A DNA stretch of 64,000 nt, from IMG/VR virus record IMGVR_UViG_3300007535_000003, positions 33,238 through 97,237 of that record. The stretch is one strand, 5' to 3'. The position numbers were made by a program, and so were the translations under genes. Origin of the DNA: a virus. Below are positions 27,069 through 63,609 of this stretch, piece after piece. Position 1 is the stretch's first letter, and each line of letters starts with the position of its first letter. The notes beneath the pieces were generated by a model that had not been told where the DNA came from, searched no databases, and saw only the letters and a list, made by a program, of their open reading frames with translations.

Positions 27069-27138
27069 GCCGGGTAGCTCAACGGTAGAGCCTAGGATTT
27101 TACCCTAGAGAAGCGAGGTTCGAGTCCTTGCCCCGGCA
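27069..27138 (+). tRNA. tRNA-Lys(TTT), intact
   Basis: A complete cloverleaf of 70 bases without CCA. The acceptor pairs GCCGGG/CCCGGC with one mismatch at position 7. The D-arm is GCTC-AACGGTA-GAGC, the anticodon arm CTAGG-ATTTTAC-CCTAG with anticodon TTT, and the T-arm CGAGG-TTCGAGT-CCTTG. It lies 8 bases after the interrupted tRNA and probably shares its transcript. Confidence 0.85.
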
Positions 27139-27152
27139 CTAAATTAATAAGC

Positions 27153-27404: not shown

Positions 27405-27408
27405 TACT

Positions 27409-30427: not shown

Positions 30428-30438
30428 ATTTTCAAAAT

Positions 30439-36257: not shown

Positions 36258-39200
36258 TTACCTAAACCATGCTAACATACTACCCATATCTGTAAGTCTA
36301 TAATACTGTTTCCAGAATGGTAACATATTATTAAGGTGTTTGGCATATCGAGGATTACCTTTTAATGGTCCCTTTTCTATCTCATCAAATATACTCTGTC
36401 CAGGATCTGCAAATTCTGAGAAGAAATTTATAAGGTTCTCAATTATAGCCAAAGAAGCTGCAGGAGACCTAAGTATCCTTTGAAACTCTCCAGGACTATA
36501 GAAAAATAAAAGCTCTGACCTTAACCTAAGGGCATGGAATGCTATTGTTTGATACATGTACTCTTCCCTATCATCATCTGCTTCTTTAAGACCTTTTAGA
36601 GCTGCCCAGCCAATTATTATAAATGCAGCTAAGAATATATGATCACCTAGAGTCCTGCGTATATTAGCTCTTTCTACTGCTGTAACTCCTTTCCAATGAG
36701 CTCTAGCCATATCAGCTTTAAACCTCATAAGATCCCATATTATCTTAGGCATTATCCTAAGGAATGAGATATAAGCACCTTCAACAGAGGATTCTAGCAG
36801 TTCATTGTACTTAAACTTATAGTTACCATTTTCATCCTTTAGCCTCGAATGTTCCCACCTACGTTTAAATCCTGGTACAACAAACTTCCTAAACATCATA
36901 CCTGCTTGACCTAAAGCATGTCTCTGAATAGCGTTAGAGCCTTCTTTAGAGTATTCACCGTGCATTCTAGATAAAACTCTTTTGATCTTATTACCAAATT
37001 GTAGAGCTTCATCTCTAGTCCAATCAGACTCTTTCTCAACTCTATCATTTAATTTAATCTTGCCTGTTTCCTTATCTACTTCAATTGCGTGATAAAGTGT
37101 CATATCTCTTCCGTTGGACCTTTTCATGATATTCCCATCTTTATCATATATTTTCTGTGATAGAGCCATTGATACTGCAAATCTTACTTGCATCATATAT
37201 TCGCCCATATGAGACTGGAAGAATGCTAGATTACTAGTCATTAACTGTCTAAACTTATTGTGCTTCCTCATTCTGGGATCATTACCATAGTCGTGTAGTA
37301 TATCCCACCACTCTTCTAACCTACTCAATTTGTTAGTAGGAGCCCTACTGCCTATATCATTGAATATACCTGGTAGATTCGTCTTAAATATTATACCAGC
37401 TCTTTCATAGTCTTTCATATTAGTATATTCACCAGCAAAGGCTTCTACACGTTGCATAACTTGGCCTAATCCCCAGTTAGCTATACCTTGTACTAAGTTT
37501 AGACCTAGTAGATTATAAGCTGAGTACTTATTAATATTTTGTATAACTTTAGTAGTATCTACAGACTGGCCAAATACAGAGAACTCGCCCATTTGCTCCA
37601 TAGACTTACCATACATAGCGTGTTTCATCCAATCCTCAAACTGTTCAGCTATATAACTTCCTTTCTCTTTAGTAACTTCTTTACCCCTAAGGGACCTTAG
37701 AGCATTTTTAATAGGGTTGCCTTTAGCTACTAATCTCAACTTCCTATTATTAAGGTGGAATTGAGTAAGTTCCATGAACGGCAATATTTCACTCTTGTAC
37801 TTATAGTCTATCCCCATTGTAAACCTCATATTATACAAAGAAGCTAGATCATATGACTGTTCACTTTCATTTATATTAGATGAGTAGAATATAGGTAAGA
37901 ACATTCGTTCATTGCCGTTTTCATCTTGAAGCTTTAATATCTCACTCCTCTGTTTCTCAGTTTTCCCTGTTCCTACAGTTTCACCTTTCTGTATATCTTC
38001 AGGCCGCCTAGTAAATGCTTTCCTACCAGTACCCTTTAAAGCTTTACCTATATTATATCCTGATCTTAATCTTTCTACGAAAGTTTTCGATACTCCAGGC
38101 AGCCTAGTACCTAGTCTGTACTTATATGGGAGCCTCATATCTATTTCAGCATTCTTGTTTACTATATATTCATAGTATTTAACTCGTGGATCATCTGGAT
38201 TCTTACTTTTTATATTCGTTAGTTTCTCCCACTCAGGATTCTTCCACATGTCTATAGGTGTTCTATACTCCCATTCATTCTCACGTATCCACTTAAGTAT
38301 TTCTGAAATAGCTGTTTCATTATCTTCAAGGATATCAGTAATATCCCTCTTAAAGTCTCCTGGGGAGTAGTCATTATCAATAAGCTCTGTCTTTGTCTCT
38401 TCTGATAATATACCTTGTTCTACTAATGTGTCATAAAATAAGGCTTTATCTTTCCTATATTTATTAGTATCAAAATTAGTATTATTATTTTTCCACCTAT
38501 TAATCTCTTTACCCCTAGCCCTAGCAGCTTTTTTAGGATTTACACCGCTATAATCTCTTCCAAAAGCTATCTCTTTAATTAGGTCTAACTGGCTATGAAA
38601 TTCGCTGTGAAACTCTGACACATAGTGTTGTGTGTACTTAGAGTTATGACTCTTATATTCATATAGATTAGGTTCTAGTAAGAATTCTTTACCACCGCTA
38701 GTATATCTTACCCAGTTACCATAGTCCTCACTTTTAGTAACTACAGCCTCTTTAAAGTTATTAGCACCTTTTTCACTTATATATATAGTTCTGCCTACCC
38801 TAAATGCTACATCTCCAGATATTATAAACGACTGTGTTTTCTCTAGCATAAAATCATACAGACTCTCAGGACTAGATATAGTAGTATAGCCTTGTTTCTT
38901 TTCTAGCTCCCTTGTAAGTTCAACTACTTCATCCCTAACATCTATAGATTCATCTCTAGACTTATTATGCTGAATCATAAAGGCTTTAACAGCTGATGCT
39001 ACAACCTCATCATTACTATCTAATACACTATCAGCCCATCTAGCTAAGAAGGGTATATCATACTTAGCCTTCTCTATTTCATTACGTAGGCTATTCCTTA
39101 TATTCTGTTTTATCAAGTCCTCATTTTGCTTCACTTCTTCATCAAGAAACTGTGCTAAAGGCTTAGCTTTTTTATCTTCTTTAGACCACTGACGCCATTC

Positions 39201-42200
39201 TTTTTCTTTCTCTAATTTAAACTCCTCATATGCCCTAGTATCAAATTCACTAAGAGCATTTACTAATATCTCAGATGAATCCCTAGTATACAGACTTTTT
39301 ATAGAGTTCTTCATTTCTATAGTACTAGTAAGGAAATCACGTATTCCAGAAAATTGCTCTTGTATTTCACTTTGTTTAGTAAACTTTAGATATTCTTCTT
39401 TCATTTCTTCTAAAGTATCAAAAGCAACTAGATAGTCATACCATTGGCGGAATAATTCTGCTAACTCTTTATTAGTAACTTCACCTTTATCTATCCTATC
39501 TTTTAAACTCCAATATCTATCATATATATGCTTAGTATGTTTACCAGCTACAGAAGCAAATCTAGCTAGTGCTACTATAGGGCTATCCTCTTTCATCTTT
39601 TCATATTCTTCAGACAGCTTAGCCACTTGTTCTCTCTTACCCCTATTTTTGTATAGTGATATCTTAGTCTCTAATCTTTCTAAGACTTTATCCTTCAGTT
39701 TATCAGCCCTAGTTATATTACTATCAATAGCTCCTTGAGCTGATACTATGCCCCTTATCATAGCTATATTCTTCTTCTCTTCAGCTGTAAGCTCCCTATC
39801 AACTCTTTGTTCATAAGAGTCTACCAGGGTTTCCTCAGCAGCTTCTGTAGGCTTCTGACTTACAACTTTTTTAGCTAATTTCCTAACGGCAGACTTTTCA
39901 ATATGTAATAGTTGCTTAATCCTATCAAATATACGCATCAGTACTCTTTCCCACCTACTAGCTTTTTGTAGTCTCTGCTCATTATCTTTGATATTATTGA
40001 ATATATCAGCAGTATCTCTACCTATTGCTGTAGCTAGTACTTCTTTCTTTAGGGTAATATCATCAACACCTACCAGATCAGAATAAGTATTATATACTTC
40101 TTGTTCTATACTAGATCCTTCAAGTTCTTTTAAAGCCTTCTTAACTAGTGGGTTCTCTAACCCACCCATCAAGTCTATAAGCAAGTGGCCAAACTCATGG
40201 CCTATAGTATCTGTAGTCCATTTATTAGGGTTAACCCGTATTACTCTACCATTTTGTTCAAGTAAGCCTTTTTGCTCAATAGAATAATCTTCTGCTACAT
40301 CTTGTACATAAGGGAAGGTATTAAGCATTATATCTTTCTTACGCTCAAAGTCAGCCCTATTTTCTTTATCAAGAATATCAGTACCAAGATCGTTAGTGTT
40401 GACCGTCATTCTATAACTACCTTCCTGAGTAGTCTCAGCTTCACTATTGTTTACTAAAGATTCCCATATATTTCTTGTAACAATATTAAGCCTTTGTTTT
40501 TTATCAGATATGAGATTACCGTTATTCTTAAGAGCTATAGAATTAAGCTTTCTATATACCTTTTTAGCTAATCCCTCTCCTCGACGTCTATCAAACTTTA
40601 TCCAACGTACTCTGAGATTATTGCCTTCTCTTTCTAATAACACATCTCCTATCTTACCTTCACCGTCACTTACCTTGTACTGAATACTTTCACCGCTAGA
40701 TATTCTAAGAATATGTTCTAAGGACTCTTTATTTTCTTCTGAAGGCTCCATTACAACATCTTTAAGATCATATCTCTGCTCATATTGATCTAAAGATATA
40801 AGATCTTCATTAGCCTGCCTGCGCATCTCATCTATCTCTTGCTGATTACGCTTAAGTGCAAAATTGTCTATCTCTACAGTATATACATCTCTACCAGCCT
40901 GCCTACTAGCATCCTGTTTCTTTAATAGCTTCAATAAACCAGGATTATTACTATTAATAGCATTGACTAACTTAAGAGCCTTAGCATAATTATTACTACC
41001 TTCAGAATCTGCTTTAACCCATATTTTATCTTGATACCGCTTACCTGCTATACCATCTTGAGCTATTAGATGGTCTTCTACAGATTTACGAGTAAAGAAT
41101 CTCTTATCTTGTGGTTGTATTCTTACTCTACCCGCCCTTTGTTCATAGGAAGGCTCATTTTTAACAAATTCTCTAAAGCCCTGTATATCTTGTTCAGAGC
41201 CTAGTATATGAATTTGATCAGGATTAAATACAGCTGGATAACCTTCTGCTATTATAGAATCAAAATTTCCATATTTTTCTAGCTCCCCTATTTGCTTATT
41301 CTTAATAAACTGGCCACCTCCTGTATTAGGATCATATATATCTAAAAGACCCAGATAGTTTTGCTTAGCCTTTTCATTACTTATATTGTCTATATATCCC
41401 CTACGCTCTATATCCATACCCTTCTCTATATCGGATACAGTTCCTTCGCCGTATTTAGAGTCTATAAAGTTTTTTACAGCTCTAAGATCTTTGTAACTAA
41501 AAGGGTTCTTTATATCTAATAAAGCATATACTATAGACTTACCTACATAAGGTTCTTTTCCAACTTTATCAAAAAAGAAAGCATCACTAGTTCTACCATG
41601 GCCTTTTTCAAATCCTACCTCCTTCATATTAGGGTGAGATGAAGAGTGCTGGTATATTTCCCTAGTTGTACTACTAGAAAATATAGTATTTAAGTATTGA
41701 GAGTAAGCTTCTAAAGCTTGTTGTTTTTGTTGTGGGGTTACTTCAAAATTACTAATAGATTCAGATTTAATATCTTCAAGCATTTGCTTATAAGATTCAG
41801 CGTGTCTGTCTATTGTACTATCAGGTACATTAGCTCTATTTTCACCTCTTGCTATTTGTGCTTTTATTCTTTGTTTAGCCAGTTCTGGATTTAAATCCAT
41901 CAACTTGTATTGAACATTAGCAGTAGGTATTTCTTTTTTGATAGCTTCAATAAAAGGTAGTCTTTTATCTTTCGTTAAATTAGTAGTATCAAATACAACT
42001 TGTTTACCTTGTTTAATTGCTGCTACAGCTCTTTTAGCAGCCTCTTCATATATTTCTTTATCTTTAGATTTGTCATTTATATCACCTGTAAACTCAACTC
42101 TCATTGCGTCAGGTTCTATAACTACTAAATTTTCTTGCGGTAAAGATTTTATAAAAGTGGACTTTCCACTACCACTTGTACCGATGGGTAATATAACATC

Positions 42201-45200
42201 TGGTTCACTTTTAAACCCTAAAGCTTCATATACTTTATTAGCTAAATCAGGGTTTTGCTGAAATACAGCATCCACTCCTTCTTTAACTCTAGGAGCTCTT
42301 TGTTCACTACTAGGTAAATCCTCTACTGTTATAGTCCTATCTAATCTCCTGTTTATAATATACTCAGAGAATGTAAGTATTTCTTCAGTAGCACTATTTA
42401 CCAACTTTTTACCTGATATAGCCCTGAACAAATCAGTAAACAAGGCTACTATCTTATCCCACAATGAGGGAGATGTTGTTTGAAGTTCCCTTACAAAATT
42501 AGGATTGGCTATAATCTCTGATACAAATTCTAAAGGATTTTTAAGTCCATAAGACTTACTATTAGGCAACCTCCTTAAAGCCTCTTGCCAGTATCTCCTT
42601 ATTTTATCATGGAACTCTCTCTCTGTTTTAGTGGTAGGCTCCAACAAAGACCTTACAGTTAGACTATGCATACCTTCGTGTATCATAGAGACACCAAAAT
42701 AACTAAACATAGAGGAGTCTAACCTCTCCATAGAAATATGAATAGTATTTTTATTTGGATCGTAATACATATAAGCATTAGAATGCCCTTCACTATCAAA
42801 TTGAGTAGTAATAACAGCATCAGTCTTTTCTATTAGATCCAACCAAACTCTATACTTATTACTATGAAAGAATGTATCGTAATTATCCCTAAGTTTTTTG
42901 ACAACTTTTGGTACATGAGTATCTTCAATCTTTCCATCAAATATTGTATCTCTTATTTGTATAGAATTTAACTGTGATATTCTATCCTCAGTCTCAGCAA
43001 CAAGCTTATCTACCTGATTTCTATAGTACCTGATTCTAGATTCCAGTAGTGAAATGGCATTACTGTATTCCTTTTTTGCTATCTTAGCTATAGGATCTAC
43101 AGGAGTTAATCCAGTCATTCTAGTGAAATAATCTTGACTTATTTTTCCATCTTGAAGGTCTTCTATAAGATCATCTACATCATAGGTAGCTAGTTTTCTA
43201 TTCCCTTCAAAATACATACCTAAGGAGCTGTAATCATAAGACCTTAATATTTCAGCAATTTCTGGTAATGCTGCAAAAGCTTCAGAAGGTACCATCATAC
43301 CAGCCCCATAGTCACTCTTTATACGCCTTATAGCCTCTTCGTATATTTCTATGTTCTGGTTATACTCTTCTATCATAGATGATAAGCTCATAGCAGCTTC
43401 AGTGGTTATTTCACTTTCTTGCAACCTATTAGTTCTGCCATAGTCATCAACAAAATATATATTATCAGAATCAAATGTAACATACTCTTCATAAGTACCA
43501 TCAGATGTAAATGCTTGCTCCTCAATATATATAATACCATCATTACCCCATGCTTTCCATGTCTTAACATCTTCAGTACCTATATTAGCTACAGTATCGT
43601 ACTCTACCTCTTCAGATGAAAACTTCCTAGGATTACGCATATTGAGGAATAGCGGCCTAGTCTGTATATTCTCTTCACTAACCCCAGTTCTTTCAGCACT
43701 AGACTTACCATACCGCCTAGCAAAATTAATATTAGGTGTAGCATAGAATGCTGCTTTATCGCTAGTACCAGAGAATTGTTCAGTACTACCATGCCATAGT
43801 ACTTCGGGTTCCCCGTTAACATCTACAGCTTTAGAAGAATTCTTAGGATCGTTAACCCAATCACCAAACCATTCTTTAAACTCTGAAGTCCTTGTATGCA
43901 AATAAGTCCTTAAAGCTGTATTGAAATCATATGTAGACTCTAACTCGCTGAATAAATTAGATATATTATCGTTAGGAGCTTTATACTGATTTTTATCATA
44001 AGCATCGGTTACCTCACCACTACTTATCATACTCTTAAGTAAAGTAGCTTCCTCTTCATTAAGATTAGGGAATGCTTTCTGTATAGTACTTACAGTATGG
44101 TCTGCTTTACCCTTAGGTAATTTCTTAGTTGTTAGACTCTCGCCTTTAGCGCCCATACTCTTAGCTGTCTTATCTACATCTTCTTCAGGAGTGATAGTGT
44201 CTTGTAAGGATTCTTTACTATAGAATACAGCTAAATTATCAGCTTTACTTACCTCTGTAAAGTCTTCATATATTTTCTTACCACTTTTACTAATACTGCG
44301 TATGCCATTAGCATCGAACAGTGTATTCCTCGGCTTGTCTTTAGAACTAGCTAAATTAGCTTTATTTTCTTCAAAGAGTGTATCTTTGAGACCATACTCT
44401 TTAACCTTATGCCCCCTAGAACTATAACCACGTCTATCAGTTAGCCTATATACTGGATCTTTAACAGCATTATAACCTATATATTCATATAGATACACTT
44501 CATCACCCCAAAGACGCTTTATAAATGGTTTATAAACAGGAGTACCATGAGAATTACTACCTACCCATAGTTCATTCTTCTCGCTATCTACAGTAATAAG
44601 GGCTGATTCTCTGTTACCCCACCCTACAGTATTATATAGAGCAGCATCTTGTACTTCAGGTACAATATTATCATTAAACCAACTATGCTTGAAGAATTCA
44701 TCTAGTACTTCAGCAGCTATACTACTAAAGTTCTCTTCATGATTAAGGTCTTGTATTTGCCAAGATATATAATCACTGAACCCAACATCCCTTAAGTACT
44801 GAAATGGTATATATTCAAAGAAAGAATTAAGGGTACCATTGAACCCTGACGTAAAGAAAGCATAAGCTACAAGATCTTTACCTAATCTCCTTACAGCATC
44901 ATTGGGATATGATAATAGTTCTTTCCAGCCTTTAGTAACTTCATCCTTATCCCACTTCTCAGCTATATCAATAGTATTTGTAGCTAATTTATCGTAATCA
45001 GATTCATTCTCTGCTAGCCTAGGACTTAACATATCTAACAGTTTATTCTTCTTAAGATCTTGGTACTTATTAGGGCTGAATTTGACATTGTATACTCGCC
45101 TAGCTACACTATTATTACCTTTGAGTAATTTATTAACACTAGCTGAATCATACCCCATATATTCAGGATCTGAAAAGAATCTAGATACTATAGCAGAATA

Positions 45201-48200: not shown

Positions 48201-51200
48201 TTCTTTAGCTACCCCTTCTTCCCTAGCATATTTATATATACGCTGTTCAAAATTATTTACCTTGCCAGGCTTATCCTGTGAATCAGTCAAATAGGGAACA
48301 AGTATAGGATTACCATCCTTATCTAGTTCATAATTTTCCCTAAATACAAATAATTTGTCAATATCGAAATCAGAACCTGTAAGAGTAGTAAACTCTGCAG
48401 GCAGTATAACTGCATCTTTATAATTCTCTGGTAAGAAACCTACTATATTTAAGCTAGATACAGAGTTAGGACCTTGAGTAGGAACCCTATAACCTAAGGC
48501 TTGTGGGTTATTTTTAAGGAACTTTTTCTTCTGTTCAAAAGTGAGATTCTTATAGTTGGGTATTGCATCTTTATACAAATCAACACTGACAACAGCGTCC
48601 ATAGATATAATATTGCCCCCTTTACCTATCCTGTAGTACTTAAGATCTTCCTTAGCTTCTTGCAACCATGTAATCTTATCCTTGTACTTATCTAACCCTT
48701 CAGTAGACTTAAGACGTCTACCAAAGTTAGATACTTGTATAAAGGGCTTACCAGGTATCAAAAGATCTATAATATTCTTATTAATAAGTGATACAACCCT
48801 ATTCTCTATCCACTTTCTGTTTGGCAGAGAATCAAATTCTGGATAATTACCGTTAGCATCTGGAGTAAGGGCATCTACTATGTTGTTAGGACTGTTAGAC
48901 CTTACAGCATCCTCTCTGAGGACTTCTAAGAGCTTCAATTCATTTTCGACTACTCCAGTACTAGGATTGATCCCCATGCCAGTGAGGAGCTTCCTAGCCC
49001 CTATTGTGGACAATCTACCAAGGGACTTGTTAATAGTATTAAGTATTTCTTTACCAGTAACATCTTTACCTTGTAGACTATAAATACCAGCTTTATTAAC
49101 ATTATACATAGGAACTTTCTTAACCTGTGTACCTAAAGCTATTTCAGTTTCTTCGTGGGGATCAGTCATAATCTGTCTCCTAAGAAACTCAAACTTCTGA
49201 CTATATACAGCTGCTTTATCTAACGAGTTTATATCTTCATGCTCAGCATCTGCATAAAATTCAAACCTATCCCTATTACCTACTTTGGTAGCGGTATCAA
49301 ATTTAACTTGATGTATTTTTTGTAAGTCGCCGTTAAGATTGAAAGTACCCCCAGGAGCGTAATCCCCTTTTAGCTCCATTCGATCTAACAACTCTTCAAG
49401 CTCAGTATCTTTGACTATATCCCTGGTAAGTACGGCCATAGACATTTTATCGTATGTAGGTACAGCCATACCCCTTTCATAGCTAGGGCCAAAGTATACT
49501 AACTTTAACGGTGGAAGTGGGTTAGTATCAAATTCGCCTCTCTCACCCTGTAAATCTGCTAAAGCTTGATCATCTTCTATATGCCATTCGCCTAAACGTT
49601 CTTTTATAGACTTATACATTTCAGGTGAAATAAATACCTGTGCATCTGTTTGGTCTACTTTTTTGTAGTTATTAAGCTTATTAGTAGAAAGTCTATCAGC
49701 TTCTACTGAAGAATACCCTTGTTCCAGCAGTAGATTCATGTAGTTATTCTTCAACTGCGGATAGTATACGCTGCTAACAATATTAGTATCTAGCGTAATA
49801 CTGTTGTATTCAGTTTCATTAGCTAACCTATGACCGCTTGGGAAATCAGTACGTAGATTCTCACCTGTAGACCCTAGTACAGAGGAACGCTTAACTTTAT
49901 TTACATCAGTACTAAAAAATGCTGGATCGCCTAATAGAACTTTATCTGTCTCTATTGTAGATACTAGGTTGTTAACAGCATAAGTAGCTATAATATCTTT
50001 AATAGCATGGTTAGTATTTCCCCCATATCTTTCCTTAGCTATATTATCTACAAGAGTACTATCTAAGTACTTGTTGCCTTGTATAGTTACTTTCTTACCT
50101 TCTACTTTAGTATCTATAATACCATATTCAGAAGCTAATTTAATAGTATCTAGTATATTAGATACTACTATATTCATAGCGTCCTGCTTTATATCTTTAG
50201 CTCGTTTCTTATTCAGGCTAGTAAACTCGTGAAACTTAGTACCATCACCTAAATAGTTACCTTGATTATCTTTAAATACTTTATATAAAGCTCTACCAAT
50301 CTGTTTATAAACAAAACCAGATCTAGGCTTAATATTGTCTAACTTATAATGATAGTCTTCTACCAGATGAGTAGTTTCCCCGGTCTTTAAAGCTTCTTCA
50401 ATCTGTTCTTTTGTCTGCTCTATCCTATTCTGTTCATCTAATATATAACCTTCTATTATCCTGATTATTTCAGAATCATAAGGTATTATAGTTTCCCCTT
50501 TATTATTCAGGGTAAAACTAAAATCAACAGGTTCTATACCACTGAAGTAATAGAAACTAGACCTATCAGCTAAAGTAGGCAATGGCAGCTTACCATGCTT
50601 AGTAGAATGCAACCTAGCTATTAAGTCTTCCATAGGGTTCATTCCCTCGTAGGATCTGCCCTGATCTAGGTATTCTCTAACAAAGGCAGAAAAAGTATCT
50701 AGTTTAAACTTAGCCCTAGCATTTGCATCTTCGCTAATACGTTTTAATATGTAAGAATTCTTATTGAATACAGCAGACCTATGGAGCTGTAAAGCCTCAG
50801 GATCTTTCTTTAACTTCCTTATAAAGTCTGTAGTAAAGCTGTTAAGCATATACTTAAAGTGGGCATTCCCTTGAGGACCCAATATAGTAGAAGACAGATT
50901 CTCAGGACTATACTCAGCAAAATACTGGCCTAAGTCCCTGGCTATACTTTCATTCAAGAACAATTCACTAGTATCATATCTATCCCCATTAGCTTTAGTA
51001 GGGAAATTGTCTAAAGAAGCTTGGTACAAAGTACCAGATCTTTCAAATAAGCCCTTTAGCCTATTAAGCAGATTCATAGCAGCACCGTATCTACCAGATG
51101 TATCATCTTGATCTAATACATATAGTAAAAGATCTTCATCAGTAGGTATATTTATACTATTGAGTAGACTACTGAGGGACCTTAGTAGCTTACCTAATTG

Positions 51201-54200
51201 ATTTTCATCTTTGTTCTTAGCAATAGCCACAGAATCTCTTACTAACTTGTTGTAAGTATCGTTATACTTACGCATCTTAGACTTATCTATCTTATTATCT
51301 TTAGTAACTAAATCGCTTTTAGCTAGTCTCTGTCCCCATTCTAACACATATCGCCTAGAAGCAGATTGTATCTCAGCGTCACCAAACCTAAATCTAAACT
51401 TATTTTTCCTATCATCAAAATAGGCATTAATAAACTTATTCTTATGCAGCCTGGTGCTTACTAGGAATTGAGTACGTACTAATTCATTATGATCATTTAA
51501 TCTATTATATAAGACTTCATAAGGAAAGTAATTCTCACTCTTAGACTTTAACCTCTCCAACATCTCTTCTACACTGTCTACATCATGTAAATCATTTAGT
51601 ACTTTATTCCATGTAGAAGTAAAGTCTACAAACTTAAACATATCTGTATAAGCATCTTTCTGCTTACTCTCAGGAAGAGTAAGTACCATCATCTTTATAT
51701 CAGACCTTATATTCTCCCTACCATCAAATTGGAATGGCGCTTTATTGTACTTTTCAAATTCTGATTGACCTCTACCACTAGTATACTCATTATCTAAATA
51801 GTCTTCTTTCTTCCTAGTAATATTTAGAGATGACAGATAGTCCTCAGCTAAAGATTGGAAATACTCAAAGTTGTCCAATATATCTTGATATAAGTCTATT
51901 AACCTATCAGCTTCAGCTATCTCTCCTTGAGCAAACTCTTTTTCTTCTTGGTTAGAAGCCTTTTCAACTTGTTCAGAGAAATATTCTTTATTATCTCTTA
52001 TTACATCTCTTTTTCTGGCTACATCCTGCTTTACCGTATCAAAGTCTATTTTCTCAACATCTTCTACTCTATGCACTTCATTGAGAGTTAGAGCTTTAAA
52101 TACTAAGTTTTTGGTAATAGTCCTTTGCAGATCAGAGCTATACCCTTGCGAATTAAGATACGCTGTAGCACCTTTGAATATAGGAGCTGCTTTAGATTTT
52201 TTAGGTCTTGCGTATTTAAATCTACCTTGTTCTACAGCCCTAAATACATTCTCTACATCTAAACTGGATAATTGAACATCTCCAGTAAATAGGGTATATA
52301 TTATATTCCAAAGCTCCTGAAAGAATCTTTTTATTGCGCTGGGTTCTTTAAACTTATCCTTGTTATCAGTAAGTACAAATTCCCTAAACCTTTCAGCTAA
52401 TCTCTCTTCAACCTCTAAATTAGAGGCTCTAGCCATATCATACTTTCTCCTGGCTTTATCGTACATCTCTCCCCTTTGCTCGGGAGTAAGCAATGATAAG
52501 GATACTCTGTGAAATGCCTCATGGAAAGCAGTACCATACTCAGCAGCTCTAGACAGTATAATCATATCAGATCTAGTCTGGCCAAATGCTTCTTCGCCAG
52601 AAGATATCACTTTAATTAAGCTGTCTACAACATGTACATTCTCTTTAGGCAATTTATTCCTAAGCCATTTTAGCTCTCTCTCTATATCTATTTTTTTATA
52701 TGTAGAAGGAGCTTGACTCCTAAGCCTAAAAGGACTTATTTCATTAGGATCGTCACCAGCATTTCTAGGCTTGTTTTGTCTTTCATTGTACTCATCTGAA
52801 ACATCTTTAGTATAGATATAGCCCATGTTAGTACCACCGAATACAGACTTGAACTGCTCCATTACAGCTTTAGCTACATCCTCATTAGTAACAGATTCCC
52901 TTTCAACTGCTTGAAGTTCTGATTTAGCGCTAGACTTAGTGAGTACCTGTATCTTCCTATTCTCATCCACCCTAAGCACAGGGTCGGTAAACATAGTCTT
53001 CTCTTTACCTTCCTCTATAATAGCATGCTTGGTAACTAACTCTGTATTAGCTGGTATATTCTTAAATTTCTCTACAGTGTCTACAGTTCTGTAGAATTTC
53101 TTAGACTTAGATTTAGGCTCTTGTTTAGACATTACAGTTTTAGATGCATCTTCAGACGTCTTTTCTTCAGATTTAGAATTAGTAGGAGTCACACTACCAG
53201 AAGTATCATTACCAGAGTTGGTAGGACTTATAGAGTTTATATCGTAGTGTATAGACGGTGCATGAAATATCGGCTTTTCAGCATCTGTCATTACTAATCT
53301 ATTATCTATAAGATATTCAGAGTAAGTAGTATCATTAGCTCTTACTTCTATATCCCCTAACTTAAACGATCTATCAAATGTCTTACCTAGTTTATTAATG
53401 CTAGCTACATAATTCTTGTTGGCCTTAGCCCACTCTACAAACTTATTAATATCATCTGAAGATATTTCGCTTATATCTGATTTACCTGTAAGATCTATAA
53501 TACCACTTTCTCCATAATGGAGCTTTCTTTCCTCTACATATAGTTGCTTACGCTTTAAATCAGTTTTAGTAGGATCTGTAACTTTGGTATATTTGATACC
53601 CTCCAATGCTAATATATTAATAGCTTCACCCGCTGTAAGATTTTCAACATTAGGTATATTAAGGGCTGTATTATAGCCACCTTTTAGATGCGCTGTAAGT
53701 ATAGCCTCTAATAGTATTCTAGAATGTTGATCAGATAACTTTGAAGGATTAAGTTTAAAAGGAAATTCCTTGCCATTTTGAGTAGCTTCTGTAATAAGGA
53801 ATACATTACCTGGATTACCTGTATATTCTGCAAAGCCCCCTTTACTAGAGTGCAACATACCAGAGTTATCAGCTATAGCTACTTCAGCTTCTTTAGCTGT
53901 AACAGGGAATACATCAGTTATTTTCTTATTACGTTTTTCTTTTGTCAAAGAGGCTGTTATAGGTCTACCCCGACCTTTCTGAAGGTTAGTAACAGAAGGC
54001 CTATTTCCTTTGAGTATCTCCCTAAGCACTCGAATCCTATTAGCCCTAGTCTTACTCATTATGTTCTCTTTATAGATTTCTGTTTGTTCTTTAGTAAGAT
54101 CACTAGGTACTACAAAGGCATCATAACTAGATACATGGGAATGTACAATAGCAACAGTATTACCTTTAGCGTTCTTTACAGTACCCTTTATAGGTATTTG

Positions 54201-57200
54201 ATCTGTAGGATTAAAGAAAGATTTAGGATTAGGCAGATTATCTTTTATAATACTGTTTATCTCTTCATCTGTAAATGTTTTCTTACTTTGTAAATACTCC
54301 TTAAGCTTTGTATTATCATTCCAAAATATCTTATAAGTAAAATCAATACTAAATTCTATAATATGATCTTTAAGGTTTGTAGTAGAAAAGTACCTATCTT
54401 CCTTATTGTAGAACTCATCAGGCTCTGTACCCCTTACTTGCTCATCCCCATAATAAGCTACCATTTGTGAAGGATCGTATACTTTAAGAGTATCTTCAGC
54501 TAAATGTCTACTAGCTTCATGCAGCTCTATAAAGGTTCTACCAGATTCTTCTGGTGTAACAGGCTCTAGTATCTCCTCGCTAGTTAGAACTTCTTCAGCT
54601 CTTTCCCTAGCTTTATCATCTATTAAACCCTGCTCAGTTTCGTTTCCGGTCTCAGATTCAGCTGCTCCTTCTGGTGCTTCCTCAACTCTCCCTTCAACGT
54701 CTGATAATTCTGCAGCGGACTTTGTAAGGTTAATTTCTTTCGGAGTTGCGGATCGAATAGCATTGCCAATTCGTTTAAGTTCATTTTGTAATTTCTCCTT
54801 TTTAATCTTAGTACCAAATCGTTTATTTTGTATCATGTTAGCCATTGCTTGGCTTAACTGGTCATTGTATATTTGAGCTACCTGTTTTCTAATACCAGCT
54901 TTCACCCAAGACGTATAGCCACCTTTATTATCTTTACCTTTGACATGTAATCTACCCTTACGATAATATACAGCATACTCTTCACCAGTTTCAGGTGATC
55001 TTACTATGACAAAGTCTTCATTAGCTTCTTTCATTGTTTGCATAGCTTGAAGCCTAGCAAACTCTATTGTAGCTATAGCTGCAGATAGCTCTTCAACAAG
55101 TACAGGATTCTTAAAGGTAACTGATCTATTATCACTATCACGCAGAGTAACACCACTAGGATTGCCCTTATTATCTTCCTCTATAGAATCTAGCCTATTA
55201 TTAGTAGGTATAGTGTATTCATTGCCTTCTATAGTAATAGTCCTACCATCTCCCCTAGTTCTTACATCAAATATGTAATTACCTAGTATAGTAACACCTA
55301 AATCTTTTGGTTTAGATGTACTATCTCTTGTAGCTATATCATATTCATTACCCCCTACATCTATGAATTTAGTATCACCACTATCCTTATCATAAGTAAG
55401 ATACCCTGTCTTACCATCATGTAAAGCTGGTAACATATCAGTACCACTAGCTTCAAATACTGTGGTTATAGGCTGGTTAGTTAAAGTATAATTAGCATAC
55501 CTATCTATAACATCCTGCTCAGCTTGAGCTTTAGTCCTAGGAGCTACTTTCGTAGTTTCCCCTATAGCTGCTTCACCAGTATAATATTCTTGTTGTTGTT
55601 CAGTCTCCCCAAATATAGTAGTCTTATACTCTTGGGTTTTATTATCTACATACTCTTCTACTGTTTGACCATACAATTCTGACTCAGGTACTCCTTCTAC
55701 GCCTCTTCCCTGCTTTTCTAAAACTGCTAACTCAGCATCATATTTAGCATTAATTTTATTAGGATGGTATTGATTCCAATAGTCGCTCAAAGATTCAACT
55801 TCACCATCTATTATTTTTTGAATTGCAGGTTGTAGTGATGCTCTTGCTCCATAATAGAACCCATACCCTCTATTAGTTAAGTCTACTGTAATTTCTTCAG
55901 CAGTCTTCCCTTTTTTAATTTGAGCAGCAATAATTTTATCAAGAAGCTCTAGTTCATTCTTAAGTCTGTCTCCCGTAAAGGTTTCTTCACTTTTATCTCT
56001 TGGTCTTTTAACTAATATACTCCCTTTAACAATTTCAGACTGCTTTAACTCTTCTTGCCTCCTTCTCTCAATTTCTTGTCTCTGTTCTTCAGTACCACGC
56101 CTTTCCTCTTCAGTATAGAGACCCTCAGCCATTGTAGCAGTACCTTTCTGCTCTTCCTCTACAGCTAATTCACCTAGTGTCTGTTCTACTTCTTCCTCTT
56201 GTTTCTTCTTTTCTTTCTCATCAGTATTTACTATAGTCTTAGCCCTATCAGCTAATTCAGCTGTATTTCTTAATAGCATCCTATACTCATCCTGCCTAAT
56301 CTCTTTATCAGCAGTAGCATCAAATAAATCACTATGGGCTTGTTTAATTTCTGGATCAGAACTGGTTACTAAGTCTTTTTCACTAAAATCAGATCTATCT
56401 AGCTTTTTATTGTACTCTGTCTCAGTATTTCTTATCTCCCTATTAAGCTTATTCCTAAACTTTTTAGCGAAGCTTTTAACATTAGGTATATCATGTTGTT
56501 CAGCTAAATCGAATGCTTCTAACTTTTCTTTAAGAGCATCTAACTTAAGCTTAGTACTAAGAACATCTATAAAATCCTTACCCAAATCTTCAGCAGTATT
56601 CCTAACTTCTCCTTCTGTTTGGTTTAAGTATTCTACCCTAGATTGCTCATCTCTTTTAGCTTGAGTATACTTTTTATTAAGATTGGCCATTTTAGAAGCT
56701 GCAGCTAATGCTTCTGACTCGCTTAATTTACTGAGATTCCTATTAGACTTATAATTCTTAAGTATCTTAGCACCAGCCTTAAAAGCAGCCTTTTCATCTT
56801 CTATCATCTCATTGGTAATACCATAGTCTTTGGCAAGTTTGGATCCCTTAATCCTATCCATTATATCAAGGAATCTTTTCGATCTATCCTGACCATATAT
56901 AAGGTTACTAGTCTTTTGTTTAGCACTCCTCTTACCGAGCCCCATAAACTTACCTAGTATCTGTTCCCTATAAGTATCTTTTTCAGCTTGAGATTCGAGA
57001 TCGAACATTTGCTCTACCTCTTTCTTAGTTCTAGCAGATGACAGTATATCCCTGAAATTAGCAATAGTAGATGAAGCTGCTGTAAAAGAACCACCCATTA
57101 AAGCACCTGTTCTAGTAGCTTCCCTAAACTCTTTACTATCAGCTAATTCTTGTTCGCCTAAACCTAGTATAGCATTTGTAGATCTGATTGATGCATCAAA

Positions 57201-58541
57201 ATATGTCTTTATATAATCTTTAACATCAGATATCTCCTCTAGAGTACCATCTTTATACGCTTCTTGCCATATAAACTGATTACCTTCTTCTATAGCCTCT
57301 GTATAAGCATTACATACAGTAGAACCTACACCTACAAAGGCTCTCCTCATAGCAGCAGAACCAAAGGCTTTGCTTATATTAGGGAACCAAGGTATAGCTA
57401 ATATAACTGTTTGAGCTATATCTTCTGACATTAAGCTCATATTAGCTTTCTTAAGGTCATCAAGGCCCTCATAAGCATTCATTCTAATAGCTCTAGCCTC
57501 CTCTTCATCAGGCTCTCTACCGTAAGTATTTATAAAATCTTGTTCCTCCTGAGCTAATTTCTCTTCATACGCTTGACCAGCTTCAGCCTCACTTTCATGC
57601 TCACGCATCTTAACCAAGGCAAACGCCCCAATACCTGCACCTACTACTGTACCTAGTGCCATACCCCATGGACCACCTAAACCTAAACCAGCTAAAGCTT
57701 TAGTAGCTATTGCGGGACCTAATGCTGCACCTAACTGCCACATCCAGTCAAAAGCTCCGCCAGCTAGTACTTCCCCAGATTCATATTTAAGAAAAGTACC
57801 AAAGCCATAGTCACTTGGTATGAATGGGTTACCAGTACCCTCATCGGCTATAGCAGCTGCTTTCTTAAGCTTATAAGGCAGCGATTGTTCAAACTCTCTT
57901 ATTTCTTCTTCTTTAGCCTGTATATCCCCCTGAAGTGATTCTACTTTAGTTAAAGCTAATTCCCTACTAGCTCTTAAATCCCTAAACTCTTCCATAGATA
58001 AATTATCAGAATCTTTTAGCTGTTCATCTATCTTATCTAGTTCATTCTGGGCGGTAGCTAGTTCATCAACAACCCTAGATTTTTTAAAAGAGTTATAATG
58101 TTCCCTAAATGAATCAGCCCAATTAGACCATCCACTCTGAAAGTTGGTTTGTATAACTCTAGGATCTGCGGAAGGTTGGTTTTTATAATCACCTTTGGCT
58201 ATGAACGGTAGATTTTGAGCTACTCTAATCTTAGCAAGCTCTTTAACTAATTCCCTATTTTGCTGTCTTTGAGCTTCAGCAATAGCAGTACCAATAGAAC
58301 TAGCTCCTTTGCCTACTTCAGGGCTATATGATAGTTCATCAGTACCTTCAGAACTAGAGTAGTAGTCGCTGTAGTCTACAGGGTAAGCACCTATATTATC
58401 AGCACTTACATTACTGCTAGCTGCTTTATTGCCTACAGCAAGATCTGTATCAATATCAGTATTAATATCAACCTGGTCACCACCAGGTGTATTATAATTC
58501 ATATCGCTTAAGTAAGCTTTATATTCAGGGTTATTAGCCAT
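36258..58541 (-). CDS. Giant polyvalent protein, 7427 aa, with predicted virion RNA polymerase
   Basis: One open frame of over 800 kDa, no TAG codon, TAA stop. Visible parts in order: a hydrophobic stretch at 273-307; charged coiled-coil-like segments; HEAFH at 2007-2011; a central region with SDFDIDKLFVF (DFDID at 3391-3395), the metal-binding motif of the crAss virion RNA polymerase; a SLOG/Moco-carrier-like domain at 3880-4025 (SGGQTGADQGG); an ASCH-like domain at 4055-4160; an ADP-ribosyltransferase-like domain at 4893-5040 (FKEWFGDW, VLWHGST); HEGMH at 5288-5292; a P-loop kinase at 5445-5600 (GTSGSGKST); a second ART-like domain at 5620-5795; a GNAT-like domain at 5947-6033 (RRGEGLAKKVYRKL); HEFGH at 6115-6119; and a hydrophobic helix near 7300. 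Other crAss-like phages split this into several genes. It is probably packaged, injected and used to transcribe early genes and counter host defence. Confidence 0.85.
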   Translation of the reverse strand: MANNPEYKAYLSDMNYNTPGGDQVDINTDIDTDLAVGNKAASSNVSADNIGAYPVDYSDYYSSSEGTDELSYSPEVGKGASSIGTAIAEAQRQQNRELVKELAKIRVAQNLPFIAKGDYKNQPSADPRVIQTNFQSGWSNWADSFREHYNSFKKSRVVDELATAQNELDKIDEQLKDSDNLSMEEFRDLRASRELALTKVESLQGDIQAKEEEIREFEQSLPYKLKKAAAIADEGTGNPFIPSDYGFGTFLKYESGEVLAGGAFDWMWQLGAALGPAIATKALAGLGLGGPWGMALGTVVGAGIGAFALVKMREHESEAEAGQAYEEKLAQEEQDFINTYGREPDEEEARAIRMNAYEGLDDLKKANMSLMSEDIAQTVILAIPWFPNISKAFGSAAMRRAFVGVGSTVCNAYTEAIEEGNQFIWQEAYKDGTLEEISDVKDYIKTYFDASIRSTNAILGLGEQELADSKEFREATRTGALMGGSFTAASSTIANFRDILSSARTKKEVEQMFDLESQAEKDTYREQILGKFMGLGKRSAKQKTSNLIYGQDRSKRFLDIMDRIKGSKLAKDYGITNEMIEDEKAAFKAGAKILKNYKSNRNLSKLSESEALAAASKMANLNKKYTQAKRDEQSRVEYLNQTEGEVRNTAEDLGKDFIDVLSTKLKLDALKEKLEAFDLAEQHDIPNVKSFAKKFRNKLNREIRNTETEYNKKLDRSDFSEKDLVTSSDPEIKQAHSDLFDATADKEIRQDEYRMLLRNTAELADRAKTIVNTDEKEKKKQEEEVEQTLGELAVEEEQKGTATMAEGLYTEEERRGTEEQRQEIERRRQEELKQSEIVKGSILVKRPRDKSEETFTGDRLKNELELLDKIIAAQIKKGKTAEEITVDLTNRGYGFYYGARASLQPAIQKIIDGEVESLSDYWNQYHPNKINAKYDAELAVLEKQGRGVEGVPESELYGQTVEEYVDNKTQEYKTTIFGETEQQQEYYTGEAAIGETTKVAPRTKAQAEQDVIDRYANYTLTNQPITTVFEASGTDMLPALHDGKTGYLTYDKDSGDTKFIDVGGNEYDIATRDSTSKPKDLGVTILGNYIFDVRTRGDGRTITIEGNEYTIPTNNRLDSIEEDNKGNPSGVTLRDSDNRSVTFKNPVLVEELSAAIATIEFARLQAMQTMKEANEDFVIVRSPETGEEYAVYYRKGRLHVKGKDNKGGYTSWVKAGIRKQVAQIYNDQLSQAMANMIQNKRFGTKIKKEKLQNELKRIGNAIRSATPKEINLTKSAAELSDVEGRVEEAPEGAAESETGNETEQGLIDDKARERAEEVLTSEEILEPVTPEESGRTFIELHEASRHLAEDTLKVYDPSQMVAYYGDEQVRGTEPDEFYNKEDRYFSTTNLKDHIIEFSIDFTYKIFWNDNTKLKEYLQSKKTFTDEEINSIIKDNLPNPKSFFNPTDQIPIKGTVKNAKGNTVAIVHSHVSSYDAFVVPSDLTKEQTEIYKENIMSKTRANRIRVLREILKGNRPSVTNLQKGRGRPITASLTKEKRNKKITDVFPVTAKEAEVAIADNSGMLHSSKGGFAEYTGNPGNVFLITEATQNGKEFPFKLNPSKLSDQHSRILLEAILTAHLKGGYNTALNIPNVENLTAGEAINILALEGIKYTKVTDPTKTDLKRKQLYVEERKLHYGESGIIDLTGKSDISEISSDDINKFVEWAKANKNYVASINKLGKTFDRSFKLGDIEVRANDTTYSEYLIDNRLVMTDAEKPIFHAPSIHYDINSISPTNSGNDTSGSVTPTNSKSEEKTSEDASKTVMSKQEPKSKSKKFYRTVDTVEKFKNIPANTELVTKHAIIEEGKEKTMFTDPVLRVDENRKIQVLTKSSAKSELQAVERESVTNEDVAKAVMEQFKSVFGGTNMGYIYTKDVSDEYNERQNKPRNAGDDPNEISPFRLRSQAPSTYKKIDIERELKWLRNKLPKENVHVVDSLIKVISSGEEAFGQTRSDMIILSRAAEYGTAFHEAFHRVSLSLLTPEQRGEMYDKARRKYDMARASNLEVEERLAERFREFVLTDNKDKFKEPSAIKRFFQELWNIIYTLFTGDVQLSSLDVENVFRAVEQGRFKYARPKKSKAAPIFKGATAYLNSQGYSSDLQRTITKNLVFKALTLNEVHRVEDVEKIDFDTVKQDVARKRDVIRDNKEYFSEQVEKASNQEEKEFAQGEIAEADRLIDLYQDILDNFEYFQSLAEDYLSSLNITRKKEDYLDNEYTSGRGQSEFEKYNKAPFQFDGRENIRSDIKMMVLTLPESKQKDAYTDMFKFVDFTSTWNKVLNDLHDVDSVEEMLERLKSKSENYFPYEVLYNRLNDHNELVRTQFLVSTRLHKNKFINAYFDDRKNKFRFRFGDAEIQSASRRYVLEWGQRLAKSDLVTKDNKIDKSKMRKYNDTYNKLVRDSVAIAKNKDENQLGKLLRSLSSLLNSINIPTDEDLLLYVLDQDDTSGRYGAAMNLLNRLKGLFERSGTLYQASLDNFPTKANGDRYDTSELFLNESIARDLGQYFAEYSPENLSSTILGPQGNAHFKYMLNSFTTDFIRKLKKDPEALQLHRSAVFNKNSYILKRISEDANARAKFKLDTFSAFVREYLDQGRSYEGMNPMEDLIARLHSTKHGKLPLPTLADRSSFYYFSGIEPVDFSFTLNNKGETIIPYDSEIIRIIEGYILDEQNRIEQTKEQIEEALKTGETTHLVEDYHYKLDNIKPRSGFVYKQIGRALYKVFKDNQGNYLGDGTKFHEFTSLNKKRAKDIKQDAMNIVVSNILDTIKLASEYGIIDTKVEGKKVTIQGNKYLDSTLVDNIAKERYGGNTNHAIKDIIATYAVNNLVSTIETDKVLLGDPAFFSTDVNKVKRSSVLGSTGENLRTDFPSGHRLANETEYNSITLDTNIVSSVYYPQLKNNYMNLLLEQGYSSVEADRLSTNKLNNYKKVDQTDAQVFISPEMYKSIKERLGEWHIEDDQALADLQGERGEFDTNPLPPLKLVYFGPSYERGMAVPTYDKMSMAVLTRDIVKDTELEELLDRMELKGDYAPGGTFNLNGDLQKIHQVKFDTATKVGNRDRFEFYADAEHEDINSLDKAAVYSQKFEFLRRQIMTDPHEETEIALGTQVKKVPMYNVNKAGIYSLQGKDVTGKEILNTINKSLGRLSTIGARKLLTGMGINPSTGVVENELKLLEVLREDAVRSNSPNNIVDALTPDANGNYPEFDSLPNRKWIENRVVSLINKNIIDLLIPGKPFIQVSNFGRRLKSTEGLDKYKDKITWLQEAKEDLKYYRIGKGGNIISMDAVVSVDLYKDAIPNYKNLTFEQKKKFLKNNPQALGYRVPTQGPNSVSSLNIVGFLPENYKDAVILPAEFTTLTGSDFDIDKLFVFRENYELDKDGNPILVPYLTDSQDKPGKVNNFEQRIYKYAREEGVAKEIEDVRKLYTREIKRILQSRELSKEELDYLQSEFRDALDRYQGVYLEAVEEDIADRKEAIDTVHSMIQDLNQGIKDVKDSIKKKSDELVEKWVKEHREEFAQRSILEQNTPAAIENILIASYRSILLDSKHAVQTYTPLDTYTDRLKKIASEVKTETELPDNYSLTPRFQADSKRRYIEGKNLIGSFALNNVHHIVGQIADLYIDTDLGIPQTKEAAELEKTPDDMLKEAFSTAYELMGEFNLNGVLPEQYQDYIKEVPATEKSRYIEKLKKTKVNGIPANKLIEAAKLPNALQTTPIPYKDIASYKSIIDSYNSKVLDKWVSMKMPLPDVTFEEAHWISNNEETVNKIIEASTKEVGGGIKIEEGLQETAMSMLYDSDAIETIDTEQTTLFDVEIPGESVLRGTLEGEEASYKFDFYRFVKDYISGERTVKVSLSKIISGGQTGADQGGLVAALNLGIETGGTAPQGFITEKGKDESLSSKYGLVEGEYDPKIYPKRTRKNIENSDGTLLVGNTTSPGTKLTVNLAKKLNKPYIVNPSSRELAKWIADNNIKVLNVAGNRESVKPGIQKQTADLIEKALQEGYKVGQKFTPTNTTNVAGTDIKPSVTMPMNFKDGQGGRKMRPEFRGKSTMDLIISGDRTATSRSPEARKHVKKGDVVKFTDTEGRSVLVRATTDEYSLDKITPEEWSKVEGWSEEEYSRLEGKGYVQFQYEKITKIEKTTTGTTNLAVHKGVDGEYVSDWMSAAISALVDIGKDPYIFDVNVNNTTQNVANLLLRSGLGDRTFYFLAQPILKDLAYYDSLTDKSGSGIAAINTAAVSVVRGIYKKRMKEEFEKLKKQGVEKFETESTGKPFNFTRLRKDASGKHANDFEYYARQLEILGKYQELKGYGAALTEAVMASRIDTAQYGKNLVEARIYENKYNKVLRDNVIKNFKKSFTDTFLGEYMNNVLPALHTILKNRTITSTDGFDYIHNQVLKFTGTMYTSDNRLMKDVVNYSANEIYSAIVSRFFSDPEYMGYDSASVNKLLKGNNSVARRVYNVKFSPNKYQDLKKNKLLDMLSPRLAENESDYDKLATNTIDIAEKWDKDEVTKGWKELLSYPNDAVRRLGKDLVAYAFFTSGFNGTLNSFFEYIPFQYLRDVGFSDYISWQIQDLNHEENFSSIAAEVLDEFFKHSWFNDNIVPEVQDAALYNTVGWGNRESALITVDSEKNELWVGSNSHGTPVYKPFIKRLWGDEVYLYEYIGYNAVKDPVYRLTDRRGYSSRGHKVKEYGLKDTLFEENKANLASSKDKPRNTLFDANGIRSISKSGKKIYEDFTEVSKADNLAVFYSKESLQDTITPEEDVDKTAKSMGAKGESLTTKKLPKGKADHTVSTIQKAFPNLNEEEATLLKSMISSGEVTDAYDKNQYKAPNDNISNLFSELESTYDFNTALRTYLHTRTSEFKEWFGDWVNDPKNSSKAVDVNGEPEVLWHGSTEQFSGTSDKAAFYATPNINFARRYGKSSAERTGVSEENIQTRPLFLNMRNPRKFSSEEVEYDTVANIGTEDVKTWKAWGNDGIIYIEEQAFTSDGTYEEYVTFDSDNIYFVDDYGRTNRLQESEITTEAAMSLSSMIEEYNQNIEIYEEAIRRIKSDYGAGMMVPSEAFAALPEIAEILRSYDYSSLGMYFEGNRKLATYDVDDLIEDLQDGKISQDYFTRMTGLTPVDPIAKIAKKEYSNAISLLESRIRYYRNQVDKLVAETEDRISQLNSIQIRDTIFDGKIEDTHVPKVVKKLRDNYDTFFHSNKYRVWLDLIEKTDAVITTQFDSEGHSNAYMYYDPNKNTIHISMERLDSSMFSYFGVSMIHEGMHSLTVRSLLEPTTKTEREFHDKIRRYWQEALRRLPNSKSYGLKNPLEFVSEIIANPNFVRELQTTSPSLWDKIVALFTDLFRAISGKKLVNSATEEILTFSEYIINRRLDRTITVEDLPSSEQRAPRVKEGVDAVFQQNPDLANKVYEALGFKSEPDVILPIGTSGSGKSTFIKSLPQENLVVIEPDAMRVEFTGDINDKSKDKEIYEEAAKRAVAAIKQGKQVVFDTTNLTKDKRLPFIEAIKKEIPTANVQYKLMDLNPELAKQRIKAQIARGENRANVPDSTIDRHAESYKQMLEDIKSESISNFEVTPQQKQQALEAYSQYLNTIFSSSTTREIYQHSSSHPNMKEVGFEKGHGRTSDAFFFDKVGKEPYVGKSIVYALLDIKNPFSYKDLRAVKNFIDSKYGEGTVSDIEKGMDIERRGYIDNISNEKAKQNYLGLLDIYDPNTGGGQFIKNKQIGELEKYGNFDSIIAEGYPAVFNPDQIHILGSEQDIQGFREFVKNEPSYEQRAGRVRIQPQDKRFFTRKSVEDHLIAQDGIAGKRYQDKIWVKADSEGSNNYAKALKLVNAINSNNPGLLKLLKKQDASRQAGRDVYTVEIDNFALKRNQQEIDEMRRQANEDLISLDQYEQRYDLKDVVMEPSEENKESLEHILRISSGESIQYKVSDGEGKIGDVLLEREGNNLRVRWIKFDRRRGEGLAKKVYRKLNSIALKNNGNLISDKKQRLNIVTRNIWESLVNNSEAETTQEGSYRMTVNTNDLGTDILDKENRADFERKKDIMLNTFPYVQDVAEDYSIEQKGLLEQNGRVIRVNPNKWTTDTIGHEFGHLLIDLMGGLENPLVKKALKELEGSSIEQEVYNTYSDLVGVDDITLKKEVLATAIGRDTADIFNNIKDNEQRLQKASRWERVLMRIFDRIKQLLHIEKSAVRKLAKKVVSQKPTEAAEETLVDSYEQRVDRELTAEEKKNIAMIRGIVSAQGAIDSNITRADKLKDKVLERLETKISLYKNRGKREQVAKLSEEYEKMKEDSPIVALARFASVAGKHTKHIYDRYWSLKDRIDKGEVTNKELAELFRQWYDYLVAFDTLEEMKEEYLKFTKQSEIQEQFSGIRDFLTSTIEMKNSIKSLYTRDSSEILVNALSEFDTRAYEEFKLEKEKEWRQWSKEDKKAKPLAQFLDEEVKQNEDLIKQNIRNSLRNEIEKAKYDIPFLARWADSVLDSNDEVVASAVKAFMIQHNKSRDESIDVRDEVVELTRELEKKQGYTTISSPESLYDFMLEKTQSFIISGDVAFRVGRTIYISEKGANNFKEAVVTKSEDYGNWVRYTSGGKEFLLEPNLYEYKSHNSKYTQHYVSEFHSEFHSQLDLIKEIAFGRDYSGVNPKKAARARGKEINRWKNNNTNFDTNKYRKDKALFYDTLVEQGILSEETKTELIDNDYSPGDFKRDITDILEDNETAISEILKWIRENEWEYRTPIDMWKNPEWEKLTNIKSKNPDDPRVKYYEYIVNKNAEIDMRLPYKYRLGTRLPGVSKTFVERLRSGYNIGKALKGTGRKAFTRRPEDIQKGETVGTGKTEKQRSEILKLQDENGNERMFLPIFYSSNINESEQSYDLASLYNMRFTMGIDYKYKSEILPFMELTQFHLNNRKLRLVAKGNPIKNALRSLRGKEVTKEKGSYIAEQFEDWMKHAMYGKSMEQMGEFSVFGQSVDTTKVIQNINKYSAYNLLGLNLVQGIANWGLGQVMQRVEAFAGEYTNMKDYERAGIIFKTNLPGIFNDIGSRAPTNKLSRLEEWWDILHDYGNDPRMRKHNKFRQLMTSNLAFFQSHMGEYMMQVRFAVSMALSQKIYDKDGNIMKRSNGRDMTLYHAIEVDKETGKIKLNDRVEKESDWTRDEALQFGNKIKRVLSRMHGEYSKEGSNAIQRHALGQAGMMFRKFVVPGFKRRWEHSRLKDENGNYKFKYNELLESSVEGAYISFLRIMPKIIWDLMRFKADMARAHWKGVTAVERANIRRTLGDHIFLAAFIIIGWAALKGLKEADDDREEYMYQTIAFHALRLRSELLFFYSPGEFQRILRSPAASLAIIENLINFFSEFADPGQSIFDEIEKGPLKGNPRYAKHLNNMLPFWKQYYRLTDMGSMLAWFR

Positions 58542-63378: not shown

Positions 63379-63386
63379 ATCCTATA

Positions 63387-63599: not shown

Positions 63600-63609
63600 G
63601 GCTTTAATT

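Follow-up and report, generated by a model that had tools for sequence, protein, structure and literature searches.

Three proteins of crAss-like phages, gp67, gp66 and gp65 in phi14:2 and gp47, gp50 and gp49 in crAss001, are found within virions, and the polymerase of phi14:2 is responsible for early-gene transcription (PMC10172136, PMC10136315). In crAss001 virions, gp45, gp46, gp47, gp49 and gp50 were all detected (PMC10172136), and RNA polymerase genes encoding as many as about 6,000 aa have been described for crAss-like phages (PMC10136315). Here, we analyzed a 64-kb window, the right-hand part of a 97,237-bp virus record, in which one ORF of 7,427 codons (36258-58541, minus strand) begins with ATG and has zero internal stops under translation table 11. 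Judging from colinear blastp and profile matches, which place the parts in the order gp67-gp66-gp65 along the chain, the encoded protein is the virion RNA polymerase cargo in merged form, corresponding to phi14:2 gp67, gp66 and gp65 or to crAss001 gp47, gp50 and gp49.

The protein has in common with phi14:2 (Steigviridae; gp66, PDB 6vr4) a homologous core with its flanks, the DFDID motif, the order of parts and the three chain units. However, phi14:2 has three genes with end cysteines, whereas this phage has one gene without seam cysteines, an additional SLOG/ASCH-like cassette in the catalytic unit, and a kinase and a third zincin in the gp65 part. In the nearest relatives, the giant RNA polymerases of Suoliviridae (cr118_1, cr4_1, cr1_1) and of the IMG/VR genome L011, gp67 and gp66 are already fused (4.3-4.9k aa), but the gp65-like protein has its own gene, and a Cys lies on either side of that seam. 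p-crAssphage (Carjivirus communis, Intestiviridae) has the same three units in gp44, annotated as an RNA polymerase catalytic subunit fused to another subunit, and gp45, which has a zincin; it differs in that gp66 and gp65 are fused while gp67 is separate, with a Cys pair at the gp67 seam. Ten other fully fused crAss-like proteins (L023, L032, L060, L075, L145, L147, L148, L150, L157 and L163) carry all units in one ORF with few or no Cys, are 4.6-5.7k aa long and mostly represent separate fusion events on the tree; L023 and L032, both checked, have no SLOG cassette in the polymerase. The N4 virion RNA polymerase (Schitoviridae) is likewise a giant single chain with an HExxH domain that is ejected with the DNA, and the virion polymerases of N4-like phages are reported to be Cys-free, which was explained by their having to pass the tail or the periplasm (PMC3715699, PMC3915230), but it is of the unrelated single-subunit T7-like type and about half as long as the 7,427-aa protein. 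The first-pass annotation had likened the protein to polyvalent proteins, in which zincin, ART and other effector domains are strung on one injected chain (PMC5512222). The several unrelated domains (SLOG, kinase, ART-like and zincins) fit that description as an analogy, on a chain that would likewise be injected; however, polyvalent proteins are effector strings, whereas the backbone of the 7,427-aa protein is a conserved crAss-like transcription block, i.e., a polymerase train.

PHROG profiles matched a terminase large subunit, a portal, a major head protein and a DNA polymerase in the genome. The genome is that of a crAss-like phage (Crassvirales), given the terminase, portal and major head protein together with the giant RNA polymerase block and its Crassvirales neighbours, although the matched PHROGs may not be crAss-specific and it is the RNA polymerase relatives that belong to Crassvirales. 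Upstream of the giant gene lie two further minus-strand genes without Cys, encoding the cargo proteins C2 (gp46-like, 678 aa, 58557-60593) and C1 (gp45-like, 926 aa, 60598-63378), both of which match cargo genes at the same positions in relatives such as L010 and L011. The ORF of the muzzle protein crosses the record ends and extends from 1193 to 1323 aa when these are joined (63379-64000 plus the opposite end, L001:3-3581). Because this ORF continues unbroken across both ends, the genome looks circular or circularly permuted, and complete at 97,237 bp. A single tRNA-Lys (TTT) gene is located at 27069-27139. The terminase large subunit ORF of 1,046 aa (L002:10325-13465; record 27325-30465) contains, between the two terminase halves, an HNH-like insert with helicase/primase-profile matches, which is probably an intein.

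The giant protein shows colinear similarity to its relatives over much of its length, between about residue 250 and residue 7427, with 25-37% identity; therefore, the ORF is not a chance reading frame, and the 7427-residue protein called earlier from the DNA letters is real. The features described below are all on the minus strand. The gp67/gp47-like N-terminal part, detected by a profile seeded with phi14:2 gp67, spans residues 297-1825 (53067-57653). A glycine-rich hydrophobic segment at about residues 262-312 may, from its hydropathy, insert in a membrane. The closed gp67|gp66 seam, located by profile borders and Cys positions, covers residues ~2109-2191 (51969-52217) and has no Cys. Profiles further delimited the gp66 N-part (residues 2192-2900; 49842-51968), the gp66 C-part (residues 4180-4720; 44382-46004) and the gp65/gp49 core (residues 6760-7427; 36261-38264). 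The closed gp66|gp65 seam, at residues ~4721-4825 (44067-44381), was placed by alignment with split relatives, whose start Met and Cys are lost here.

The RNA polymerase core occupies residues 2904-3405 (48327-49832), with the catalytic DFDID at residues 3391-3395 (48357-48371); the DxDxD pattern was found in 83/83 aligned relatives. In tblastn searches with the polymerase part, crAss-like phages were hit throughout, GenBank relatives being 23-32% identical and the best of them belonging to Suoliviridae. Among PDB entries, phmmer found 6vr4, the phi14:2 virion RNA polymerase, at 9.5e-33, and a 25-sequence profile matched 6vr4 with E=1.1e-175. Furthermore, residues 2690-3660 modelled with AlphaFold2 (pLDDT 78.6) matched 6vr4 in Foldseek (E=9.3e-35, TMq 0.66), followed by weak fold matches to cellular polymerases, plant RDR2 and other phage polymerases. 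The polymerase identity of the core, with its gp66-type fold, is thus certain, and the proposal of a virion-type DFDID polymerase, with an RNA polymerase fold around residue 3391, is borne out. The ~130 residues right after the catalytic motif (residues 3406-3545), which are represented by 1-25 residues in cr118_1, cr50_1 and cr113_1, form a second variable site near the active centre.

Most of the accessory domains named in the first-pass annotation were recovered. The SLOG domain (cpYpsA, residues 3884-4025; 46467-46892) matched Pfam PF12694 at 1.6e-35, and the P-loop kinase (polynucleotide-kinase/zeta-like, residues 5449-5585; 41787-42197) matched AAA_33 at 1.6e-17 and the PHROG polynucleotide kinase at 2e-13; both assignments are certain, and an NCBIfam search returned nothing beyond the kinase. 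The ADP-ribosyltransferase-like region (residues 4907-4996; 43554-43823) matched ART-PolyVal in Pfam at 6.6e-7 and 30.6 bits, just below the curated cut-off of 31.2. The predicted metallopeptidase-like character resolved into three zincins with conserved HExxH sites. Zincin 1 (residues 1956-2108, HEAFH at 2007; 52218-52676) retains the motif in 46/49 relatives. The His and Glu of the motif and a downstream third-ligand Glu were invariant in 28 sequences, and the second His was present in at least 90%. Its model (pLDDT 78) has the strand/helix order of zincins, and its top fold matches were all PPEP-1 zincins, at E values of ~0.3 that fall below significance. The motif of zincin 2 (residues 5200-5390, HEGMH at 5288; 42372-42944), which is present in phi14:2 gp65, was conserved in 14/15 relatives and that of zincin 3 (residues 6060-6330, HEFGH at 6115; 39552-40364) in 15/15. 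The suggested ASCH domain (residues 4045-4168; 46038-46409) remains only a possible, ASCH-like one, with a weak PDB match to an ASCH-fold amidohydrolase (E=1.3) but no ASCH match in Pfam. No support was found for the GNAT-like part: residues 5920-6065 had no Pfam or PDB match, and the GNAT motif is seen by eye only.

The SLOG and ASCH-like domains lie in a cassette of ~514 residues (~3657-4170; 46032-47573) that interrupts the catalytic subunit. The flanks of this site are 0-30 residues apart in the nearest relatives and others (L011, L012, L016, L019, L038, cr1_1, cr4_1 and cr118_1 among them). Several relatives instead have comparable domains near the gp66 C-terminus, adjoining the gp66|gp65 seam, which is open there: L028 has cpYpsA with RNase H (14600-16162), L012 has RNase H with a DprA-like domain (14060-15307), and L016 has RNase H (11000-12445). 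The SLOG, RNase H and DprA-like domains may be exchangeable cassettes.

We then compared the fusion state among relatives. In the first-sampled IMG/VR and GenBank relatives with both parts visible, gp65 was separate in 71/76 and fused in 5/76, in agreement with the earlier statement that the polymerase region is mostly divided among several genes. Among 94 dereplicated genomes, the two seams occurred in every pairing of open and closed states. A tree built from 163 polymerase cores had nine state changes at the gp66|gp65 seam, one of them in this phage; its nearest relative, L011, has the seam open. None of the relatives sampled, at loci limited to 10-kb flanks, had a protein longer than 7,427 aa. 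The protein is the longest and most complete crAss-like transcription-block fusion met here, and it has in addition the insertion inside the polymerase.

What the fusion replaces was overlooked in the first-pass annotation. While inspecting the gp66|gp65 seam, we came unsought upon a rule, which was then checked in ~160 relatives: when the three parts are encoded by separate genes, every facing end has a Cys within a few residues, and often the proteins have no other. In phi14:2, the only Cys of gp67 is its last residue, those of gp66 are at 3 and -2, and that of gp65 is at 3. In crAss001, gp47 has a Cys at -3 and gp49 one at 5, while gp50 has one at 5, one at -9 and a further internal one. 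In the first set of 94 dereplicated genomes, Cys was found at the gp66 C-end in 76/79, the gp65 N-end in 72/72, the gp66 N-end in 30/31 and the gp67 C-end in 25/27. On the other hand, the free ends had none (gp65 C-end, 0/73; gp67 N-end, 0/26), and other ORFs used as a control had an N-end Cys in 8/167 and a C-end Cys in 20/167. A second scan of 65 further genomes, with thresholds and profiles unchanged, gave 49/53, 45/46, 26/28 and 11/11 for the same four ends, respectively, and 0/56 for the free gp65 C-end. With both scans pooled, Cys was present at the gp65 start in 117/118 and at the gp66 end in 125/132, and at the free chain C-terminus in 0/129. The chain interior in the 94 genomes was tenfold poorer in Cys than other ORFs (0.07% vs 0.69%). 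Cys codons at the seam were 134 TGT and 7 TGC, compared with 304 and 63 in the chain interior, so that the TGT bias is somewhat stronger at the seam. Translational coupling, gene adjacency or a nucleotide motif as the cause of the end cysteines was considered and rejected: crAss001 gp47 and the pair gp50 and gp49 are encoded on different strands, yet the end cysteines are kept, which rules out explanations by adjacency or coupling.

The Cys pair is found at shifted gene boundaries in eight genomes (L055, L077, L110, L125, L134, L139, L162 and L169). Among proteins scored as closed at gp67|gp66, 12 in the second scan and 3 in the first start with a Cys, and their upstream partner ends with a Cys in all eight readable cases, indicating that the pair lies wherever the gene border really is. 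Where the genes are fused, the seam cysteines are absent. The ten fully fused proteins of the second scan have zero Cys, some of these ORFs ending at the locus edge, and the 7,427-aa protein has a single Cys, at 410, with none at either seam.

Most exceptions to the rule could be traced. In L027, L038, L079, L101 and L137, the polymerase gene is interrupted before its last part, and the true last part ends with a Cys or has one nearby; in L113, an extra ORF ending in Cys precedes gp65; start calls are over-long for crAss002 gp33 and L126; and the Cys lies 32 and 24 residues from the end in L057 and L083, respectively. Among the split relatives sampled, L121 (7286-13990) alone lacks the expected Cys at the polymerase and gp65 ends without an explanation, and its polymerase ORF has ten internal Cys. 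Note that some Suoliviridae chains have 10-20 internal cysteines, and strict Cys avoidance is therefore not universal. Some C1-type cargo proteins upstream of gp67 (L091, L092, L094, L095 and L099; p-crAssphage gp47, with Cys at -2, is an example of the type) also have a Cys near one end, with no obvious partner; this Cys is possibly a further joint. A literature search for disulfides or cysteines in these proteins, which did not reach the phi14:2 polymerase paper or the 2018 crAss-like family paper, found none, and within that scope the rule is new.

Since each facing end carries a lone Cys, the pieces of split relatives are probably disulfide-joined. We consider it probable, from sequence comparison, that this phage carries its whole virion-packaged transcription apparatus in one chain, that split relatives join theirs tail to head by disulfides, and that fusion replaces both the joint and its cysteines. 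The wider proposition, to which we incline with more reserve, is that the virion RNA polymerase of crAss-like phages would always be one covalently continuous train. Lone cysteines at their ends would staple separate gp67, gp66 and gp65 together by disulfides, the train would leave the virion as a single thread and be set free when the disulfides are reduced in the host, and fusion would be a recurrent alternative to the staple. The chain would be packaged near the portal, precede the DNA through the tail as a partly unfolded thread, refold in the host and transcribe early genes, and the ART-like, kinase, SLOG and zincin domains would act on the host or on the chain itself. In the oxidised virions of split relatives, disulfides would link gp67, gp66 and gp65 into a single train, which may separate in the reducing cytoplasm. 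A continuous chain would preserve stoichiometry and order during threading. Gene fusion would have replaced the gp66|gp65 joint in this phage and about eight other lineages, and we propose that seam cysteines disappear because fusion makes the staple unnecessary. The crAss001 tail contains disulfides, but proteomics of crAss001 under reduced and non-reduced conditions reported no links between these proteins (PMC10172136). Gut habitats are oxygen-free, so that disulfide formation there is less obvious, which counts against a stapled train.

It is unlikely, though worth serious attention, that the chain is instead a polyprotein precursor, which zincins lying close to the seams would cut, either inside the infected cell or in the capsid, the long ORF being an expression trick. 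Three HExxH domains are present, one next to the border between gp67 and gp66 and two in the gp65 part, and processing by zincin-like peptidases is a role proposed for polyvalent proteins (PMC5512222); the three zincins could cut the chain before or after packaging, in which case its uncut length would be irrelevant to ejection. However, the chain is not known to have a cleavage site, and relatives with separate genes have the zincins equally, so that these are not there to cut a fusion joint. We regard as improbable a plain gene fusion, in which split and fused forms are alike in function through non-covalent contacts and the end cysteines of split relatives serve another purpose, for example a shared zinc site between the two ends or homotypic disulfides. 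Fusions of neighbouring cargo genes are indeed common (gp67 with gp66 in Suoliviridae, gp66 with gp65 in Intestiviridae), and two facing cysteines plus other ligands could bind zinc; on the other hand, no His or second Cys was seen accompanying the end cysteines, whose exact positions vary (2-7 at N-ends, -1 to -9 at C-ends), and the cysteines vanish when a seam closes and move with the boundary, as a joint between those particular ends predicts.

That an assembly or sequencing error removed a stop codon and joined two genes is very improbable. The fusion is known from one record, and a search of IMG/VR with its own polymerase sequence gave no close relative and thus no sister genome in which to check it. 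At the gp66|gp65 seam, however, the start of the relatives, M-ICPNLN, aligns with AFPNLN (~residue 4824), and a lost-stop artefact is unlikely because the fused protein has lost both the start Met and the Cys, which is conserved otherwise; other lineages also have fully fused homologues. Protein trans-splicing by a split intein in the relatives has a negligible chance of being the explanation since, despite the Cys at the downstream N-end, the upstream piece also ends in Cys, nothing resembling an intein extension separates the Cys from the terminus in the split relatives read through, and the downstream Cys is at residue 2-7 rather than directly at a splice point.

The 7,427-aa protein indicates that a catalytic RNA polymerase subunit can tolerate an effector cassette of ~500 residues inside it. 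The seam-cysteine rule bears on how proteins of several hundred kilodaltons exit a phage head, in the right order and stoichiometry, through tail constrictions that are under 50 angstroms in crAss001 (PMC10172136). It makes a continuous-thread model simply, cheaply and decisively testable in cultured crAss001 and phi14:2, for which natural fusions such as the 7,427-aa protein are the covalent control.
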